A stretch of DNA of 64,000 nt from an uncultured Halobacteriovorax sp. GTDB lineage: Bacteria; Bdellovibrionota; Bacteriovoracia; Bacteriovoracales; Bacteriovoracaceae. The notes under the pieces were generated by a model. That model saw only the letters and a program-made list of their open reading frames with translations, was not told where the DNA came from and made no database searches. The position numbers were made by a program, and so were the translations under genes. The stretch spans positions 1 through 64,000 of the forward strand of contig CAJXVS010000008.1 of the NCBI GenBank assembly GCA_913061265.1, written 5' to 3'. The stretch's first letter is position 1, and each line of letters opens with the position of its first letter. Of this stretch, positions 29,374-38,490 are shown in pieces.

Positions 29374-32300
29374 TTATTCTGAGTAACCCGTGACTGGGGC
29401 AACACATCTAAAGCCTACATCGATCATGGTGTCTTTCTTATCTGTTTCCGTGAAGTTAGTTTGCCCAGCCGCTGATTGGACCGTACTAGCATTTCCACTA
29501 ACAATGGCAAAAGCGAAGGTACTGGCCACTCCATCATTATTGATAGCGCTTACTATATCTCTTGGAACAGAAGTTACATTCCCTGCAGTATCTCTAAGAG
29601 TCACTTGAATTTGACCTGTAACGGCGTTAGCTGACACAACTTCCGCTGCTGTATTAGCAGAGAGGTTAATAAACTCTAGATTAGGAGTTACTCCTGTTCC
29701 AACTTGAACAATAGTAACGTCTCCTACGGTTAAATAACTTCTAGCAGAATCCGTACAAGGAAGAAGCTCTAAGGCATAGACACCAGCTCCAGTGCCATCT
29801 AAGTAAGATCCCCCAGTGGCCATGCCACCACAACCAGTTGCCTCTGCGGCAATAGTAGCAGAATCAAAGTTAACAATATCATCTCTTAGCTGAGTCGAAG
29901 TGATCCCTGAAGTTGGCCCGATTTCAAAGAGAAAGTCTAAGATATTGGAAGCCGAAAAGTTTGAATTAAAGTCAGTCACTACAGGTAGTCCCATGGGTAT
30001 CACGAAGCGACCTGCGCTGTTTCTTTCATCCTCTAAGGCCCAAGAATCGATTCCACCATCACAAGCATCATCAGAATTTGAATCCACACAAGGGCCTATA
30101 GCACCATCTAATAAGTATTTTTTAAACCACTGATCAGAGCCATCACCGTAGCGCATGTCTGTCCCTGTAGTAGCAAGGGCACTTGTGTCTCCAGTGATCT
30201 GCGCTTCACAAAAAGAAGCTCCATAGCGGTCCCCTGCATTTAATAAGGTCACATCTGACCAAGTCGTAAGACCGTCAGTATTCACATAGCAAGTAGCGCC
30301 GTCTAAATAATAAGTTCCAATGGCCGCAGTAAAAGTCGCTGAAGGATCACCCCCGCCTGTACACTGGCTATTAGCAGTATTACACCCCGTTCTTGAATAA
30401 GGACAAGTGCTATGACAATTGAATCTTTCGTTAGTCCACTCAGCAACATTCCCGACATGATCTTGAACACCAAAGCGAGACTTACAAGTATTGGTTTGAT
30501 TACTACCGGTCATCATACTTCTGATATTAGAAGTTGCTGTCCCAGGCAGAGAATAAAAAGTATTAGAATCAGGCACTGCTACATCAGAATAAGTAGCAGC
30601 GAAACCATTCGCTTGAGAACTATTACACTTAGCAGAACTATTAAGAGAAAGACCTGTTTCGATAGTTGTTAGATTAGCGTCAGTATTATTATCTGTATCC
30701 CAAAGGCTATAGGCCATTTGCTCTTTTCTAGATGGAAGAGTCTTAGAAATGGCTGCAGGAGCGGCAAACCCAATTGAACCTGTCTGGCTCCACGTTTGGT
30801 TTGAGCAAAAAGTATTACTATTAGTTTGAGAAATATTTACTAAGGGAGGAAGATGACCTTTTATATAGCCAGCAATGGCACTTGCTCCAGTTACTTCTGC
30901 CCAATTCCCTGCTCCAGTTCCCGTTGCTGCATAACACTTTCCATTTGATCTTGAATAATAAATATCTCCTATAGCAGTGGCTAAAATACCGGTGTCAGTT
31001 ATAGGATCATTAATCCCAATACAACTTCCATCTGCCGTTCCGCTACATGTAGGCGCTCCTGAGTAATCACAACCGGCTTCAAAGCGGTCAACAATAAGAT
31101 CTTGCCCGATATCGTAGAAGTTTCCACCAGGAACACCGCCACTATCTCCAGGACCTTCATAAGAACATCTATAGTTATTATTGGGATCAATAGAAGTCGA
31201 ATTCATAAGCGTACATATTGAACTATTCACCATCCATCTGTGGACGAAAACCGTATTATCAGGCGGAGAGAGAACTCTTAAGAGCTTAAAGACTTCATCA
31301 GTATTAGTTGATATGCCTTGAATGATAGGCCTTACTTCGTAGTAATAAACTGTATTTGGAATTGGTGGATAAATTGAATTGATTGCGTTATCCGTAAAGG
31401 TCGTTGTAGAAGAAGAAATTGTATTTCTATTAATAGGAGCATTGTAATTAAATTGGTCACTCTCCAACCTTCTAAAGACCTGGTGCTCTGAAATAGATTC
31501 ACTAGCAGGAATAGGATCGAAGGCTTCCCACTCGATAGTGATCTCACCAGCTGCGTTATAAACAACCCAGTTACTATTAGTAGCGGCCGTTGATCTATAA
31601 CAAGTTGAATTGGTTTCATCAAAATAGAATTGGTTTCTATCTGTTGCCGTATAGGTTCCGTTTGGATCGGCCGTACCGATACAACTTGCCCCTAAAGCAT
31701 TACAATCCGTTATAAGATAACTAGGCGTGACCGCGCAATAAGTATTAAGTGCTGTCCAAGTCGTTCCTGCTGCTGCTGCCTTATAACACTGATTATTAGC
31801 TGAATCGTAATAAAGAACATTAGCAGCATCAGCTGTCACAACACCATTTGGTGTAGAGGTCCCTTTACAGATTCCCCCTGCCCCACATTTATCAACATTG
31901 AATGAGCAGACAAAGTTTTCATCCCCTGTGACTGCGCTATCTTCAATAAACTGATCAAACTTATTAAACTTAGGCCCCTCTGCTGTAATATTCTTCCAAC
32001 CATTATGAATGGCAGAAAAACCGTTCACTGTAAAAGCAAATTGATAACTAGCACTGGCACCACTTAAATCTTCAGTCGTAATTGTAATATTCGCAGTCCC
32101 TGTCACACCAATTTGCGGCGTAATGTCTAAACGAAAGGTCTCTTCCCCTTCACTTGTTGCGCCTCCAAAAGCGACACCTGGCATGGCACCAACTGTTTGA
32201 AGCACATTATTAAAATAAGGGCGAACACTTCCGCTTGGAACTAAGATCACATTATCTGAAACAATAGAAGTAACACCGATCGTATCAGTGTCTTCTGAGC

Positions 32301-34392
32301 CTGCTCCACCTTCATCTATTCCAATATTATCTATTATAAAGGTGCCTTCACCTTCGTTAACTAATACGTCTTGAATAAAAGAGCCACTTTGTAGCTCCCA
32401 GGCTGAAACACTCGTTGATTTCCAGCAAACCCCTTCTGCCTTATTAAAAAAGACGATAGGTTTGCTAGCCGTGTGAGTTGTAGGTGAAATTGAAAGGTCA
32501 TCTGGATTTGAATCAGCAAGACAGCCAAGACCACCACAGGCGTTGAGATCATTATAGTTACTATAATTACAGATCACCGGATTATCATTAGTTGCTGTAA
32601 TACTTATATAAACGGTCCGGGTCTGAGAAGTGCCCGATCCGTCAGTTGCCGTATAAGTAAATGAATCAGCATATCCAGCAGCTCCATCAACTCTTGCAAT
32701 TGCTCCGATAGTCGAAACATTCCCAGGAGTCGCCGTAACCGAAATTAATTGTGAAGCAATACTATGAGCAGCAAGAGCTGTTGTAATATCTGTTGCTGCT
32801 GTAGTGCCTGCTTGATCGACATAGATAGTAATACTGTCAGCGCTAGGATCAACAATGATCTGAGGATCATTACCAATATTAAAACCTGCTGCTATCGTTA
32901 TAGTCGTTGTATTAAAAGAAGTTCCAGGAACAAGAGATGCAAATGAAATCTCTCCGGCCAACGTCCAAGTGGCCGCTGCTGGAGTTCCTGTATTTTGAAG
33001 GTTTCCACTAGTAGGCGTATAGGTACAACCAGTTTTAGTAAAGCTTGATCCCGCGTCCATACAAGAGGCTAAGCTTCCAGCTGTTGGAGCAGTAACGATT
33101 GCGTAAGTAACAGAGCCAGGAATTTCATCCCAAGCGTCAGGGATAGTTAGAGCCTGAGCTCCAGCAACATGAGTTGCCCCAGCGGCTTCTGCAAAGGTTA
33201 CACCTACGGCCGAATAGGCAACAGGAGCATCGTTCACATCAGTGATGGGTACATTAAAGGTTTGTTGATTTGAAGTAACCACTTCAGTTGTATCATTCAC
33301 ATAATAAGCAACTAAGGGTCCAGCACTAGCGTTAGCTGAAGAGTCTGTATTTTGCTTTGGTAAAACTGCCACTTCACAAGTTCCAGCACCAGTGACTGCA
33401 TTGACTTCACAAGTACAAGCACTGGTTTGAAAAAAGTCACCACCAGTAACTGAGTCAGGATTTACAACACAATTATAAACATCTGGTAATGAAAAGTGAG
33501 CCGTGTCTGGTTCAGAAAAAGCGAGCTGACTTGTTGAAGAGGCTGAAGAAAAGGTTGCTGCCGTATCTTCAGTTAAGGCCAGCGAGAATGTTCCTGCTGT
33601 TGTACTTGCTATAGGATTATCATCAAAGATTACACCTTGATTAAAAGTAACTGTAATATCTTCAGTCGCCCCAAGTGAATCAGAAACACGAATGACCATT
33701 TGATCACTAGTTAAAAATTCTTCGTTTAAAGCTGGAGTATAATCAAGGGTTCCCGTTGATGTTAATGCGTAAGTTAAATGTTTTGTTGGTGGCGTGATAA
33801 CTGAATAAGTAAGAGGCGTATTGTTCTCACTTGGCGCTCCTCCTAAAGAATCATCAACAGATGCTGAAACAGCAACATTCACTGAAGCAATCGCCGTATC
33901 TTCATTTACAGTTATAGCAAAGTTAGCAACTGTTGGCTTATCATTGATCGAAGCTACCGTGACTGAAACATATTGGGTAGCACTTGTTCCATCATCATCT
34001 TGAATAGTATAGAAAAAGTCAGCTGCTCCATTAAAGTTAGCATCTGGTGTAAGGTTGATTGAACATGCCCCGCCCGTACAATTACAAAGTGGCAGAACTG
34101 TAAAAAGATTGGCATCTAGAGAAGAGACAGTGCAAGTAAAAGCTAAGTCACTATTAATATCAGTATAAGTAAGAGCAACACTAGTCGTTCCTGAATCTTC
34201 AAGAAGAGAAAGTGCTGTCAGCGTTGGTGTTGGAGCCTGTTGAGTAACAATGGCGCCTTGACATGATCTCGAAGGAGTATCAAATGTTTGCCCAGCCGCG
34301 CAGTCAGGCTTCTCCGTTTTCTTAGAAGCGCCACCAAGGCAGCCCACCAAGAAAACCAACATGAATATGGTTATGTATCCTATTTTCTTCAT
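29374..34392 (-). CDS. Giant lipoprotein: cadherin-like repeats plus FGE-like C-terminal domain with Cys modules
   Basis: 1672 residues. Lipobox LVGC gives a lipidated Cys18. Residues about 45-600 hold cadherin-like/Ig-like repeats (VNEDTAIASVNV; ASINDKPTVANF; ITATNDNPVI; DINDAPV-type linkers). The C-terminal 600 residues fit the formylglycine-generating-enzyme/sulfatase-modifying-factor fold: FDRFEAGC-like start, KTLPSRKEQMAYSLWD, SRFGVQDHVGNVAEWT, ATGGSYLDG and the ending VGFRCVAPV. Five copies of a Cys module (…C.G…P…YY…CY…W) lie at about residues 607-669, 827-884, 887-945, 1107-1167 and 1325-1381; the last two sit inside the FGE region. Catalytic Cys pairs of true FGE could not be assigned. 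Probably a surface adhesin. Confidence 0.7.
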   Translation of the reverse strand: MKKIGYITIFMLVFLVGCLGGASKKTEKPDCAAGQTFDTPSRSCQGAIVTQQAPTPTLTALSLLEDSGTTSVALTYTDINSDLAFTCTVSSLDANLFTVLPLCNCTGGACSINLTPDANFNGAADFFYTIQDDDGTSATQYVSVTVASINDKPTVANFAITVNEDTAIASVNVAVSASVDDSLGGAPSENNTPLTYSVITPPTKHLTYALTSTGTLDYTPALNEEFLTSDQMVIRVSDSLGATEDITVTFNQGVIFDDNPIASTTAGTFSLALTEDTAATFSSASSTSQLAFSEPDTAHFSLPDVYNCVVNPDSVTGGDFFQTSACTCEVNAVTGAGTCEVAVLPKQNTDSSANASAGPLVAYYVNDTTEVVTSNQQTFNVPITDVNDAPVAYSAVGVTFAEAAGATHVAGAQALTIPDAWDEIPGSVTYAIVTAPTAGSLASCMDAGSSFTKTGCTYTPTSGNLQNTGTPAAATWTLAGEISFASLVPGTSFNTTTITIAAGFNIGNDPQIIVDPSADSITIYVDQAGTTAATDITTALAAHSIASQLISVTATPGNVSTIGAIARVDGAAGYADSFTYTATDGSGTSQTRTVYISITATNDNPVICNYSNYNDLNACGGLGCLADSNPDDLSISPTTHTASKPIVFFNKAEGVCWKSTSVSAWELQSGSFIQDVLVNEGEGTFIIDNIGIDEGGAGSEDTDTIGVTSIVSDNVILVPSGSVRPYFNNVLQTVGAMPGVAFGGATSEGEETFRLDITPQIGVTGTANITITTEDLSGASASYQFAFTVNGFSAIHNGWKNITAEGPKFNKFDQFIEDSAVTGDENFVCSFNVDKCGAGGICKGTSTPNGVVTADAANVLYYDSANNQCYKAAAAGTTWTALNTYCAVTPSYLITDCNALGASCIGTADPNGTYTATDRNQFYFDETNSTCYRSTAATNSNWVVYNAAGEITIEWEAFDPIPASESISEHQVFRRLESDQFNYNAPINRNTISSSTTTFTDNAINSIYPPIPNTVYYYEVRPIIQGISTNTDEVFKLLRVLSPPDNTVFVHRWMVNSSICTLMNSTSIDPNNNYRCSYEGPGDSGGVPGGNFYDIGQDLIVDRFEAGCDYSGAPTCSGTADGSCIGINDPITDTGILATAIGDIYYSRSNGKCYAATGTGAGNWAEVTGASAIAGYIKGHLPPLVNISQTNSNTFCSNQTWSQTGSIGFAAPAAISKTLPSRKEQMAYSLWDTDNNTDANLTTIETGLSLNSSAKCNSSQANGFAATYSDVAVPDSNTFYSLPGTATSNIRSMMTGSNQTNTCKSRFGVQDHVGNVAEWTNERFNCHSTCPYSRTGCNTANSQCTGGGDPSATFTAAIGTYYLDGATCYVNTDGLTTWSDVTLLNAGDRYGASFCEAQITGDTSALATTGTDMRYGDGSDQWFKKYLLDGAIGPCVDSNSDDACDGGIDSWALEDERNSAGRFVIPMGLPVVTDFNSNFSASNILDFLFEIGPTSGITSTQLRDDIVNFDSATIAAEATGCGGMATGGSYLDGTGAGVYALELLPCTDSARSYLTVGDVTIVQVGTGVTPNLEFINLSANTAAEVVSANAVTGQIQVTLRDTAGNVTSVPRDIVSAINNDGVASTFAFAIVSGNASTVQSAAGQTNFTETDKKDTMIDVGFRCVAPVTGYSE

Positions 34393-34626: not shown

Positions 34627-36711
34627 TTATCGTCCAATGACATTAATTGACCAATTAACTAATGTACCAACTTGAAGAGCAGCGGAATCTAGATCGACGT
34701 CTCCAGTTTCACTACCAAGACCATCAATTATTTTAATGGTCCAATTCCCATTTGAGTTTTCACCATAAAAAGAATTTGAAAGAAAGACTGACTCCGTATA
34801 ATCGTCAATCCAATCTGGAGTAGCTCCATCAAGACCAATCAGAAGCGAGTTGTTTACATTCATGATTATGCTTTTTGTTCCTGCTGGAGAAGTAAGCTCT
34901 ATTCCTAAGTCCCCAGGTCTTGGGTGTGTGATATTTAATTTAATTTGAACCGCTTCAATTGTATAAGACGAAGCCACGCTAATAGTATTGCTTAAACCGT
35001 CTTTGTTATTGTCTGGAATAATAGTTCCGACAGCAGTAGTTGAAGTTGTTAAACTAGCATCTGTTTCTTGAATCGCGGCCCATGAATTGGCACTATAAAG
35101 TTTTGCCATAGACACGGCGGCATCAGCATCAACTTGCCCAAATCCATAATGATTATGAAAACTATAACCTGCAGAATTGGTCACCCAGCCCTGCGCGTAG
35201 ACATGACCTTCGAGTGTAGCATTTGTAATAGTAGCGTAAGGCCCATTGTCAAAATCGAGACTAGAATCAACTAAAATATTACTTGAAAGAGCATCAATCT
35301 TTGAAGAAGTGCTTGCTAAGATATGCTTAACATCACGCCAAGTAAGATTCGGGTTAGCACTTAACATAAGTGCGGCAACTCCGCTAACCACAGGGGCCGC
35401 TGAAGAAGTTCCATTAAATTGATGAGTATAATCACAATTTGTATTTCCGTCTCCTCCTGAAATAAAGGGAACTCCGGCCACTCCAAATCTTGAATAACCA
35501 TCACTACAACCAGCTGTATCAGTCGTCATCATAGCAGGAGTTTCTGTTCCATACTCTCCGCCTGGGGCAGAGACCCATAGGTTACTGCCGTGAGAAGAAT
35601 AAGAAGATTTTATCCCAAGAGCATTCGTCGCCCCAACAGAAAGGATCCATGGAACTTCACTTCCCTTACCTAGATTTGAATTATGAGAAAAACAAAAATA
35701 ACCAATAAATGTACCAGCGTATGAGAAGTCGCATTCTTGAAAAGAATTACCTGCACTTTTAATATAAAGGCTTCCCTTTGATCCTCGCTGACTTGTTACG
35801 CCGTACTTTAACTGATCCACATAAGTTGAATCAGTGGCAAGTTTCATAGGGACAAATCCAGATCCATAACTATAATTATAAATATCAAAATCATCAGAGG
35901 CCTGATCAATCTGAACCGCTGTGGATTGAGTTACATTATCACCAAGATAATTAAGACCTGCCACCTTAGCCTCTGGAGCAACTCCTCTTGAACCAATTCC
36001 ATTCCATCCTGTAGCTGCAATAAGACCTGCAACTGAGGTTCCATGATCCCCTCCAGGACTAACTCCTGGGTCACCGTAATAAGGTGCTGCTAGGGCATAG
36101 TCTTTAGATCTTGGAGTAAGCACATTGGCAAAAAGATCGAGATGATCAATATCAAGGCCAGTATCACTGACTGCAATACTAACTCCATTGCCTAGGTCAC
36201 CATTGATTATTGACGTCTCAATATTAATATCATTTCCAGTTGTTCCACCTGTAATTGAAAAATTCTTTTGTCCATCGTTTCTTAAGTGCCATGCATGTTC
36301 TTTTAATGGATCTCCATAAACTTGCAGGGAAAAAGGTCCTAGCTGAGTAAATTTATTATCACGCGAGGCCCTTATATAAATATTATTAACATTTTCACTA
36401 TTACGGGGGATGCCACTTATAACTCCTGTCGAAGTGCTTATACTTAGCCAACTTGGTAAGTTACTAGCAGAAAAAGAAAGCCCTGTGGTCAATACTGTTG
36501 GGGACCAAGAGTAATACTCATCTTGCCTCACAATCACAGTAGGCGCTCCACTTATAAAGGGAGTCGAGTTCGGAACAAAGGTTACAGTCGCTCCAGCTTT
36601 TTGTTTCCCAGAGTCAGTCTTCTCCCCAGGAGTTGGAACGCAAGAGATCATTGTTAAGAGACTTAACATAAGAGTTAACTTGAATGGTCTTAGCTTTCGC
36701 ATCATCTTCAT
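34627..36711 (-). CDS. Kexin/furin-like subtilase lipoprotein with P-domain
   Basis: 694 residues. Lipobox MISC (Cys24). Residues about 50-130 form a putative Ig-like domain (SASNLPSWLSIS…GVISGIP). Then KEHAWHLRNDGQKN, the usual kexin/furin entry, and a complete S8 triad: Asp183 (AVSDTGLDIDH), His223 (GGDHGTSVAGLIAA), Ser436 (FNGTSSAAPVVSG). The last 110 residues match a proprotein-convertase P-domain (ITHPRPGDLGIELTSPAGT…WTIKIIDG). No I9-type propeptide is present in this chain. A separate propeptide-like protein is encoded 93 bases upstream on the same strand. It would cut proteins after basic residues at the cell surface or in the periplasm. Confidence 0.9.
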   Translation of the reverse strand: MKMMRKLRPFKLTLMLSLLTMISCVPTPGEKTDSGKQKAGATVTFVPNSTPFISGAPTVIVRQDEYYSWSPTVLTTGLSFSASNLPSWLSISTSTGVISGIPRNSENVNNIYIRASRDNKFTQLGPFSLQVYGDPLKEHAWHLRNDGQKNFSITGGTTGNDINIETSIINGDLGNGVSIAVSDTGLDIDHLDLFANVLTPRSKDYALAAPYYGDPGVSPGGDHGTSVAGLIAATGWNGIGSRGVAPEAKVAGLNYLGDNVTQSTAVQIDQASDDFDIYNYSYGSGFVPMKLATDSTYVDQLKYGVTSQRGSKGSLYIKSAGNSFQECDFSYAGTFIGYFCFSHNSNLGKGSEVPWILSVGATNALGIKSSYSSHGSNLWVSAPGGEYGTETPAMMTTDTAGCSDGYSRFGVAGVPFISGGDGNTNCDYTHQFNGTSSAAPVVSGVAALMLSANPNLTWRDVKHILASTSSKIDALSSNILVDSSLDFDNGPYATITNATLEGHVYAQGWVTNSAGYSFHNHYGFGQVDADAAVSMAKLYSANSWAAIQETDASLTTSTTAVGTIIPDNNKDGLSNTISVASSYTIEAVQIKLNITHPRPGDLGIELTSPAGTKSIIMNVNNSLLIGLDGATPDWIDDYTESVFLSNSFYGENSNGNWTIKIIDGLGSETGDVDLDSAALQVGTLVNWSINVIGR

Positions 36712-36804
36712 TATAACTGACCTTTACACTCTCCTTAACGGAAATAAAGGAGATTACTTGAGCTTTTAAATCTAAATGATTGAAAATAGAACGTGAAAGG
36801 ATGA

Positions 36805-37527
36805 TTATTTAGTGACAGGAGGATTCTCTAGGATTTCTAGCTCTACTCTCTCTACCCGTGGGTCATCTTTTAATACCTCTAAGATTAAGGGAGCCTTCTG
36901 TGTGTCGTCAGTCTTTAGAAGACTTAACCTAATACCAGGAAAGTTTCCTTCGAGGGTAAGACCATATTCAGATTGAAGGCCTCTCCAAGAATCATGATCA
37001 TGAAGCTTTACCTTAAAAACCCCAGTCAAGATGGCGAGCTGCCTTGTCTTCGAATTATGTAAAACAAGAGCGTCACCTTTCTCAGGTTCCTCTTTTACAA
37101 ATATCTTTCCAAATTTCTTATCGACTATTTGTGAATCATCAAAACGGTGACTCTCTGAGACCGGAACAACCTTTATATTACTTACGACACCATAGGAGTT
37201 TGATCCAGAGTTAATACTCGAAGTCGGGTGAATGATCACTCCAGAATTTGCTCTTGGTTTTAATTCTTTCATCACTAAAGGTGTATCAAAGTGTAACTTT
37301 TTAAACCCCTTATTAACCTTGACCTTTACTTTTGCCGCAGGAAACCTCTTAGAGCGATAAGGCTTTCGAGAGGACTTTTCAATCTCTTCATCCTCCTTCT
37401 CTATGACTGAAGGAGAGGTTACATCCTCTTGATACTTGTTCCAAGACAAGACCCAGATAGAGGTCAAAACCCCCAAACCTCCCACTGCTATGGCAATCCG
37501 CTTTTTCATACTAATATCATCGGTCAT
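36805..37527 (-). CDS. Membrane-anchored protein with propeptide/external-chaperone-like C-terminus
   Basis: 240 residues; start at 37527 or at the sixth codon after it (MKKRIAIAVGG). One N-terminal membrane anchor (about 9-27) is followed by a basic linker and a globular part. The C-terminal 75 residues (TGVFKVKLHDHDSWRGLQ, then YGLTLEGNFPGIRLSLLK, then VLKDDPRVERVELEI) have the shape of a subtilase propeptide: a strand, a helix, YGL, and the closing DPRVxxVELE. It sits immediately upstream of the subtilase that lacks such a propeptide, as in the Aeromonas sobria protease/ORF2 chaperone pair. Function as folding chaperone or inhibitor is inferred. Confidence 0.55.
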   Translation of the reverse strand: MTDDISMKKRIAIAVGGLGVLTSIWVLSWNKYQEDVTSPSVIEKEDEEIEKSSRKPYRSKRFPAAKVKVKVNKGFKKLHFDTPLVMKELKPRANSGVIIHPTSSINSGSNSYGVVSNIKVVPVSESHRFDDSQIVDKKFGKIFVKEEPEKGDALVLHNSKTRQLAILTGVFKVKLHDHDSWRGLQSEYGLTLEGNFPGIRLSLLKTDDTQKAPLILEVLKDDPRVERVELEILENPPVTK

Positions 37528-37599: not shown

Positions 37600-38490
37600 G
37601 TGAGAGAGAAAATCGTCTATTTAGTTCTATTTATAATCTTTGCCTTAACCAATGCGGCTCAGGCCGCTGACAAATTAGTTATCATCCAAACTGTTTCAAC
37701 TTCTAAGAAGACCTTTGTTATTAGAAAAGGATTTCTAGACGGGATCGCTATAGGTCAAGAGTCCCTCTTCACAATCAGGAGTTCGGGAGTCGTCGCTACA
37801 GCGACAGAAGTCAACCGAACCATGTCTATCTGGGAAGTAAATGATAAACGAGGCGGCGTAGCTTTTGAAAAAGGAGAATACGTCACCTTTACAAACTCCA
37901 TAGAGAACCTAATCTTAGAATTACCAAGACTAGAGAAGTTTGCTGAAAAAGGCCTACAATTTAAGAGTAAATCTTTTTGGATCGCTAGAGGAAATCTTAG
38001 TTATGCTCTTAGTGATACAGTATCTTCAACAGAAGCTGAGACCTCTTCAACAAGGTCAGGTTATCAATTAGAAGTCCTCTATGTTCTCAATTTTGATCGA
38101 AGCTGGGAATTTGGGCTTGGCATAAGAAGAGATTCTGAAGTTCAGAAGGTCTCAGAACCAGTACTTGATGTGCCCTCCACTAGGCTTCTTGGAGTTGGTG
38201 AATTAACTTTTAAATTTAACGAAGACGATTCAACTAAGAATTATTTTTATGTAGGAGCAGGTCTTGGTTACGGTCTCTCTTCTACCACTGTCGATGAAGC
38301 AGTCAGCACCGGAACGGCGTTTGTTCTTCCTACCTTAAGGTTTGGATTTTCTAAGTATATCAGTAACAGTAAGTGGGTTCTTCTTGAAGGAGCTGTTGAG
38401 TCTATTGGAATCACAGAGAGTTTTGCTGATGGTATTGAACAAACAACAACTGTCCTAAATTCTAAGTTCTCAATCGGAGTAAAATTCTAA
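37600..38490 (+). CDS. Probable outer-membrane barrel protein, unknown
   Basis: 296 residues from GTG; signal peptide to about residue 22 (…NAAQAA). The first 110 residues look like a small soluble domain (KTFVIRKGFLDGIAIGQESLF). The rest shows alternating strands with Gly/aromatic pairs (SWEFGLGIRRDSE, YFYVGAGLGYGLSS, RFGFSKYI) and ends in Phe (SKFSIGVKF), the mark of an eight-strand-type outer-membrane barrel. The stop overlaps the stop of the convergent oxygenase gene. Confidence 0.65.
   Translation: MREKIVYLVLFIIFALTNAAQAADKLVIIQTVSTSKKTFVIRKGFLDGIAIGQESLFTIRSSGVVATATEVNRTMSIWEVNDKRGGVAFEKGEYVTFTNSIENLILELPRLEKFAEKGLQFKSKSFWIARGNLSYALSDTVSSTEAETSSTRSGYQLEVLYVLNFDRSWEFGLGIRRDSEVQKVSEPVLDVPSTRLLGVGELTFKFNEDDSTKNYFYVGAGLGYGLSSTTVDEAVSTGTAFVLPTLRFGFSKYISNSKWVLLEGAVESIGITESFADGIEQTTTVLNSKFSIGVKF

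Follow-up and report, generated by a model that had tools for sequence, protein, structure and literature searches.

Genome and gene layout

The window, which is the whole stretch of DNA analysed (64,000 nucleotides; contig CAJXVS010000008.1, positions 1 to 64,000 of the forward strand), comes from an uncultured Halobacteriovorax sp. whose genome, 3.97 Mb in 12 contigs, groups with Halobacteriovorax. Within it two genes lie in tandem on the minus strand. The upstream gene (36805–37527) specifies a 240 amino acid protein, here called the partner, whose start may be Met7 at 37509; its product is a candidate membrane-anchored external chaperone, or propeptide, of the ORF2 type. The downstream gene (34627–36711) specifies a 694 amino acid kexin-type subtilase, a putative lipoprotein resembling the Aeromonas sobria serine protease (ASP). 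The two share one reading frame and are separated by 93 bases (36712–36804), the distance given in an earlier note on this DNA. In a scan of GTDB species genomes the closest homologues, 64–65% identical, came from Halobacteriovorax and from Bacteriovoracaceae MAGs. A scan for promoters and terminators returned sites no more numerous than in shuffled sequences.

On either side lie genes of other kinds. The product of the next gene downstream (29374–34392, minus strand), 1672 amino acids long, is a putative lipoprotein in which cadherin/Ig-like repeats and a weak match to FGE-sulfatase are found. At 37600–38490 on the plus strand, divergent from the partner gene and 72 bases from it, is a gene whose 296 amino acid product has a signal peptide and matches no Pfam model.

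The protease

Pfam analysis of the protease revealed a Peptidase_S8 domain (9e-42; residues 174–511, 35179–36192) with the triad D183, H223 and S436, a P-domain (P_proprotein, 9e-17; residues 585–672, 34696–34959) and an N-terminal Ig-like He_PIG domain (residues 61–131, 36319–36531). The last of these occupies the site where an I9 propeptide would otherwise be, and Pfam detected no I9 domain in the protein. Residues 1–24 (36640–36711) form a predicted lipoprotein signal peptide with Cys24 as the lipobox cysteine; this residue and the three of the triad are invariant among 20 aligned homologues. The reading of the protease in the earlier note, a subtilase with this triad and a P-domain and without an I9 propeptide, is thus confirmed. 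Across the family a lipobox-like Cys is present in 62 of the 70 proteases having a readable start.

The best solved relative is ASP itself (3hjr/3wqb, E ~1e-88), followed by kexin and furin, so that in triad, P-domain, closest relative and lack of I9 the enzyme is of the ASP type. The predicted fold, taken from the protease part of the fused AlphaFold model described below, gave Z scores of 42.0 to furin and 38.7 to ASP. Protease lengths at homologous loci vary by up to a thousand residues. In the homologue of a Halobacteriovoraceae MAG (L166, 3869–8761), which has 1630 amino acids, RCC1 repeats are arrayed at the C-terminus.

The partner protein

The AlphaFold2 model of the partner (mean pLDDT 84) consists of a single N-terminal helix (residues 4–36), a disordered stretch and a confident domain (approximately 100–238, mostly >93). 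Following an N-terminal KKR, residues ~8–28 (37444–37506) make up a hydrophobic segment which is kept in relatives and probably serves as a signal anchor; no signal peptidase I site is evident in the sequence of the anchor helix. Next comes a Lys/Pro-rich linker (residues ~29–99, 37231–37443) of low confidence (pLDDT 47–74) that is not conserved, then the ORF2/I9-like domain (residues ~100–231, 36835–37230; pLDDT >93), and lastly a tail of nine residues, ILENPPVTK (residues 232–240, 36808–36834).

The predicted domain ends in an I9-like order of strands and helices. When compared with the PDB using Foldseek, its first-ranked match was chain 3wqb_B, which is ORF2 in its complex with ASP, with an E value of only 4.9e-3. 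VIA-align gave the same chain a Z score of 9.2 (97 of 99 residues aligned, rmsd 2.7 Å), the sole chain above Z 8, and paired partner residue 240 with the last aligned residue of ORF2. Lower ranks were mostly held by the prodomains of PC1 (Z 7.8), fervidolysin (7.4), subtilisin (pro-subtilisin E, 7.1) and furin, mixed with other ferredoxin-like folds. The earlier note had seen an I9-like sequence in the last 75 residues; the predicted fold agrees with this, and the folded domain is longer than supposed, extending over residues ~100–240.

The Pfam model ORF_2_N (PF18492) matches partner residues 150–235 (E 2.2e-5) at 25.0 bits, under its curated cut-off of 29.2. Among 23 aligned relatives of the partner it matched 12, and the subtilase prodomain model matched two. 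ORF2 was found by fold comparison and Pfam alone; searching the PDB with the partner, either as a single sequence or as a profile, missed it. Since the gammaproteobacterial relatives pass the ORF_2_N cut-off and also match the profile of the window family, homology to ORF2 holds through intermediates. No match was found in PHROGs. On its modelled structure, the partner is an ORF2-fold protein and a relative of the external chaperone of ASP, and the likeness to the Aeromonas system, first suggested for the protease and its neighbour from the letters of the DNA, extends to both proteins.

Co-occurrence and gene order

A genome survey for co-occurrence had been proposed as a check, and its outcome favours the pairing. 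Of 143 related genomes, 26 yielded partners when searched with a single sequence, nearly all of them adjoining an ASP-like protease. With a first profile a linked partner was found for 47 of 65 protease matches in these sampled genomes, and with a better one for 57, six of the others lying at truncated contig ends. The apparent class of 18 proteases out of 65 without a partner was discarded, since it had arisen from the sensitivity of the profile and from the ends of contigs. A separate scan of GTDB species genomes showed a linked partner at 75 of 80 loci (73 automatically; L178 and L181 by eye); three of the remaining five loci are truncated, and two, L136 and L179, are unlinked. L136 corresponds to genome G016, in which the partner gene (G016:C16:12801-13502) and the protease gene (G016:C30:5421-7151) occupy separate contigs and are not neighbours. 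Proteases with no linked partner also include G055:C187, for which none was found in the genome survey, and L179. Because the partner adjoins the protease in dozens of genomes, the pairing is not due to chance.

The two genes are mostly co-directional, and upstream, downstream and convergent orders all occur. At least six changes of gene order can be placed on the protease tree, and the pairing outlasts such changes. Many pairs overlap by 4 bases, which suggests coupled translation.

Layout classes were assigned by eye. A partner gene downstream of the protease, with a cleavable-looking signal peptide, is found at L147, L159, L163, L177, L188, L191, L192, L193 and L195, a group made up of the gammaproteobacterial and some other loci. 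Most Bdellovibrionota have an uncleaved-looking partner anchor, most often encoded by the upstream gene. Of the 58 partners outside the downstream group, 55 possess a strong hydrophobic segment at the N-terminus, and the distance from this segment to the domain has a median of 72 residues. Judged from sequence, the anchored chaperone appears to be largely peculiar to the Bdellovibrionota. Its lipoprotein client is not, since a lipobox-like Cys is present in 7 of the 9 downstream-group proteases, whose chaperones look soluble.

The C-terminal tail

The stretch after a conserved Glu/Asp column is exactly nine residues long in 71 of 72 non-redundant partners (66 by profile alignment, plus five whose ends were mis-aligned but are easily read by eye). 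E or D also occupies position -10 from the C-terminus in 69 of them. Of the 72 partners, 63 end in K, R, H, N or Q, compared with a background of 26%, and none ends in D or E; the enrichment has p ~4e-28, uncorrected for relatedness. The window partner, ending in PPVTK, shares with the ORF2 family a last residue resembling a P1 residue. ORF2 touches the catalytic Ser336 of ASP with its C-terminal Lys, and its tail is thought to keep the enzyme inhibited (PMC5638518). Docking of this type demands a tail of fixed length and a substrate-like last residue, and the partner tails therefore fit the expectation. By analogy, the tail is predicted to enter the active site of the protease with Lys240 as P1.

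Docking was modelled with AlphaFold as a fused chain composed of partner residues 98–240, the intergenic codons (stops as Gly) and the protease. The alignment included nine other natural in-frame read-throughs, giving about ten paired rows. With this shallow pairing, and a low-confidence linker that still contained the lipoprotein signal peptide, the model did not show a pro-subtilisin-like pose for the partner domain; the proenzyme chains 3whi_A and 1r6v span both of its parts only at ~17.6 Å rmsd. Co-variation between the last partner residue and the S1-pocket columns of the protease gave no clear signal and is confounded by ancestry.

Comparison with known systems

ASP is likewise a kexin-like S8 protease with a P-domain and without a propeptide, and an adjacent gene encodes its small I9-like chaperone, ORF2, whose short C-terminal tail also ends in Lys (QPK in ORF2, VTK in the window partner). 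The system has been published, with operons in Vibrio, Shewanella, Chromobacterium and Pseudoalteromonas, and the ORF2 gene lies downstream of asp (PMC5638518). In the window, by contrast, the chaperone gene is upstream and its product combines a membrane anchor at the N-terminus with a linker of ~70 residues; the protease bears a lipobox and, in its N-terminal part, an Ig-like domain. The earlier note regarded an upstream, tethered partner and a lipoprotein protease as a new arrangement. This layout does differ from the published ORF2; it is not a one-off, being the usual one in Bdellovibrionota.

The lipase foldases Lif/LipH have the same order of parts, namely an N-terminal transmembrane helix, an unstructured linker and a periplasmic chaperone domain, in an operon with the client (PMC13381987); for the partner these are predicted from sequence. 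Their client is a lipase and their domain is all-helical, whereas the partner has a predicted I9-like alpha/beta domain, a protease as client and no lipase-chaperone match in Pfam. The partner may work like a Lif, then, and by its modelled fold is not one. CpaB is again a membrane-anchored periplasmic chaperone dedicated to the protease of a neighbouring gene (PMC4713064), but its domain is predicted to be SRPBCC-like and its client, CpaA, is a metalloprotease secreted by the type II system. I9 propeptides and stand-alone I9 inhibitors (the furin and PC1 prodomains, pro-subtilisin, POIA1) have the fold in common with the partner. The propeptides, however, are synthesized in cis and then removed by cleavage, whereas the window partner comes from a gene of its own, whose stop codon fixes the free C-terminus. 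In the open-access literature, which was the scope of our search, no description of a membrane-anchored form was found.

Proposed mechanism and alternatives

We consider it probable, with good though not complete confidence, that the upstream gene supplies the propeptide of the protease as a separate, membrane-tethered steric chaperone and temporary inhibitor, which is left behind when the protease departs. The proposal starts from the gene pair, the domains, the predicted fold, the co-occurrence and the fixed tail. Direct binding, the role in folding, the topology, the order of steps and the release would follow from the examples of ASP/ORF2 and of the anchored foldases Lif/LipH and CpaB. The N-terminal helix would hold the partner in the inner membrane, with the ORF2/I9-type domain on its flexible linker in the periplasm. 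The protease would leave Sec and be lipidated at Cys24 in the same membrane, unable to reach its native fold alone, much as nascent ASP requires ORF2 to become active and mature (PMC5638518). The partner domain would then bind the catalytic domain and assist its folding, and the encoded tail would insert into the substrate cleft as a product of cleavage does; the enzyme would thus fold in an inhibited state. As the lipoprotein moves to the outer membrane or the surface, the tethered chaperone would stay or be degraded, and the protease would become active away from the inner membrane. The control of surface proteolysis by this arrangement, suggested in the earlier note, is likewise an inference.

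That the partner is instead a permanent membrane-tethered inhibitor, shielding the cell envelope and dispensable for folding, seems unlikely to us. A fixed, product-like tail would suit an inhibitor as well as a chaperone, the anchor would keep it where protection is needed, and mature ASP too is inhibited by ORF2, with an IC50 of 84 nM; yet ASP does not mature without ORF2, the closest relative to have been studied (PMC5638518). The protease, moreover, is without a propeptide domain of its own. The I9-type prodomains of subtilases normally drive folding too, which also speaks against an inhibitor alone. Very improbable, in our estimation, is a protein working mainly as a transport chaperone for export of the protease in the manner of CpaB and CpaA, its ORF2-like fold being a docking module only. 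The layout is indeed that of type II secretion chaperones, with an adjacent gene, an N-terminal transmembrane helix and a periplasmic C-terminal domain (PMC4713064), and the genome contains four secretin-domain matches, but it has no match to GspN (PF01203), and the clients resemble lipoproteins rather than soluble secreted effectors. A part in transport would not exclude one in folding. Hardly credible is the idea that the two genes are neighbours for some other reason and their products do not interact: the fused AlphaFold model, it is true, gave no docked pose, but the linkage in 57 of 65 cases spans many genera and several gene orders, and the partner has the predicted fold of the ASP chaperone.

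If the tethered-chaperone scheme is correct, having the propeptide in its own gene and on a membrane tether would separate folding, inhibition and release in space. For a bacterium this would be a testable means of silencing a potent surface protease for as long as the enzyme is on the inner membrane. Steric foldases have been described as falling into two classes only, one serving lipases and the other serving proteases secreted by the type II system (PMC13381987). The chances are about even that the membrane-anchored steric foldases, so far represented by Lif and CpaB, have a third class in the Bdellovibrionota, with an ORF2/I9 fold, lipoprotein proteases as clients, chaperone and client tethered to one membrane during folding, a product-like lock at the encoded C-terminus and activation by leaving the inner membrane. 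With this family ASP/ORF2, a system of a few gammaproteobacterial genera, is extended to a large group with predatory bacteria among its members, and about 70 natural protease/chaperone pairs become available for the study of subtilase folding in trans.

A second gene pair

Genomes having two proteases usually carry two partners. The source genome encodes a second ASP-like protease, 51% identical to the first, with its own upstream chaperone gene (G000:C1, about 627958–630393; L059, 7959–10394). The frame of this second chaperone gene is shifted at a run of ten A residues, which places the anchor half and the ORF2-type half (ending in GGPRAK) in different frames. Phase variation, slippage or an assembly error may account for the shift; the homologous gene of a congener (L137) is intact and has no A run.
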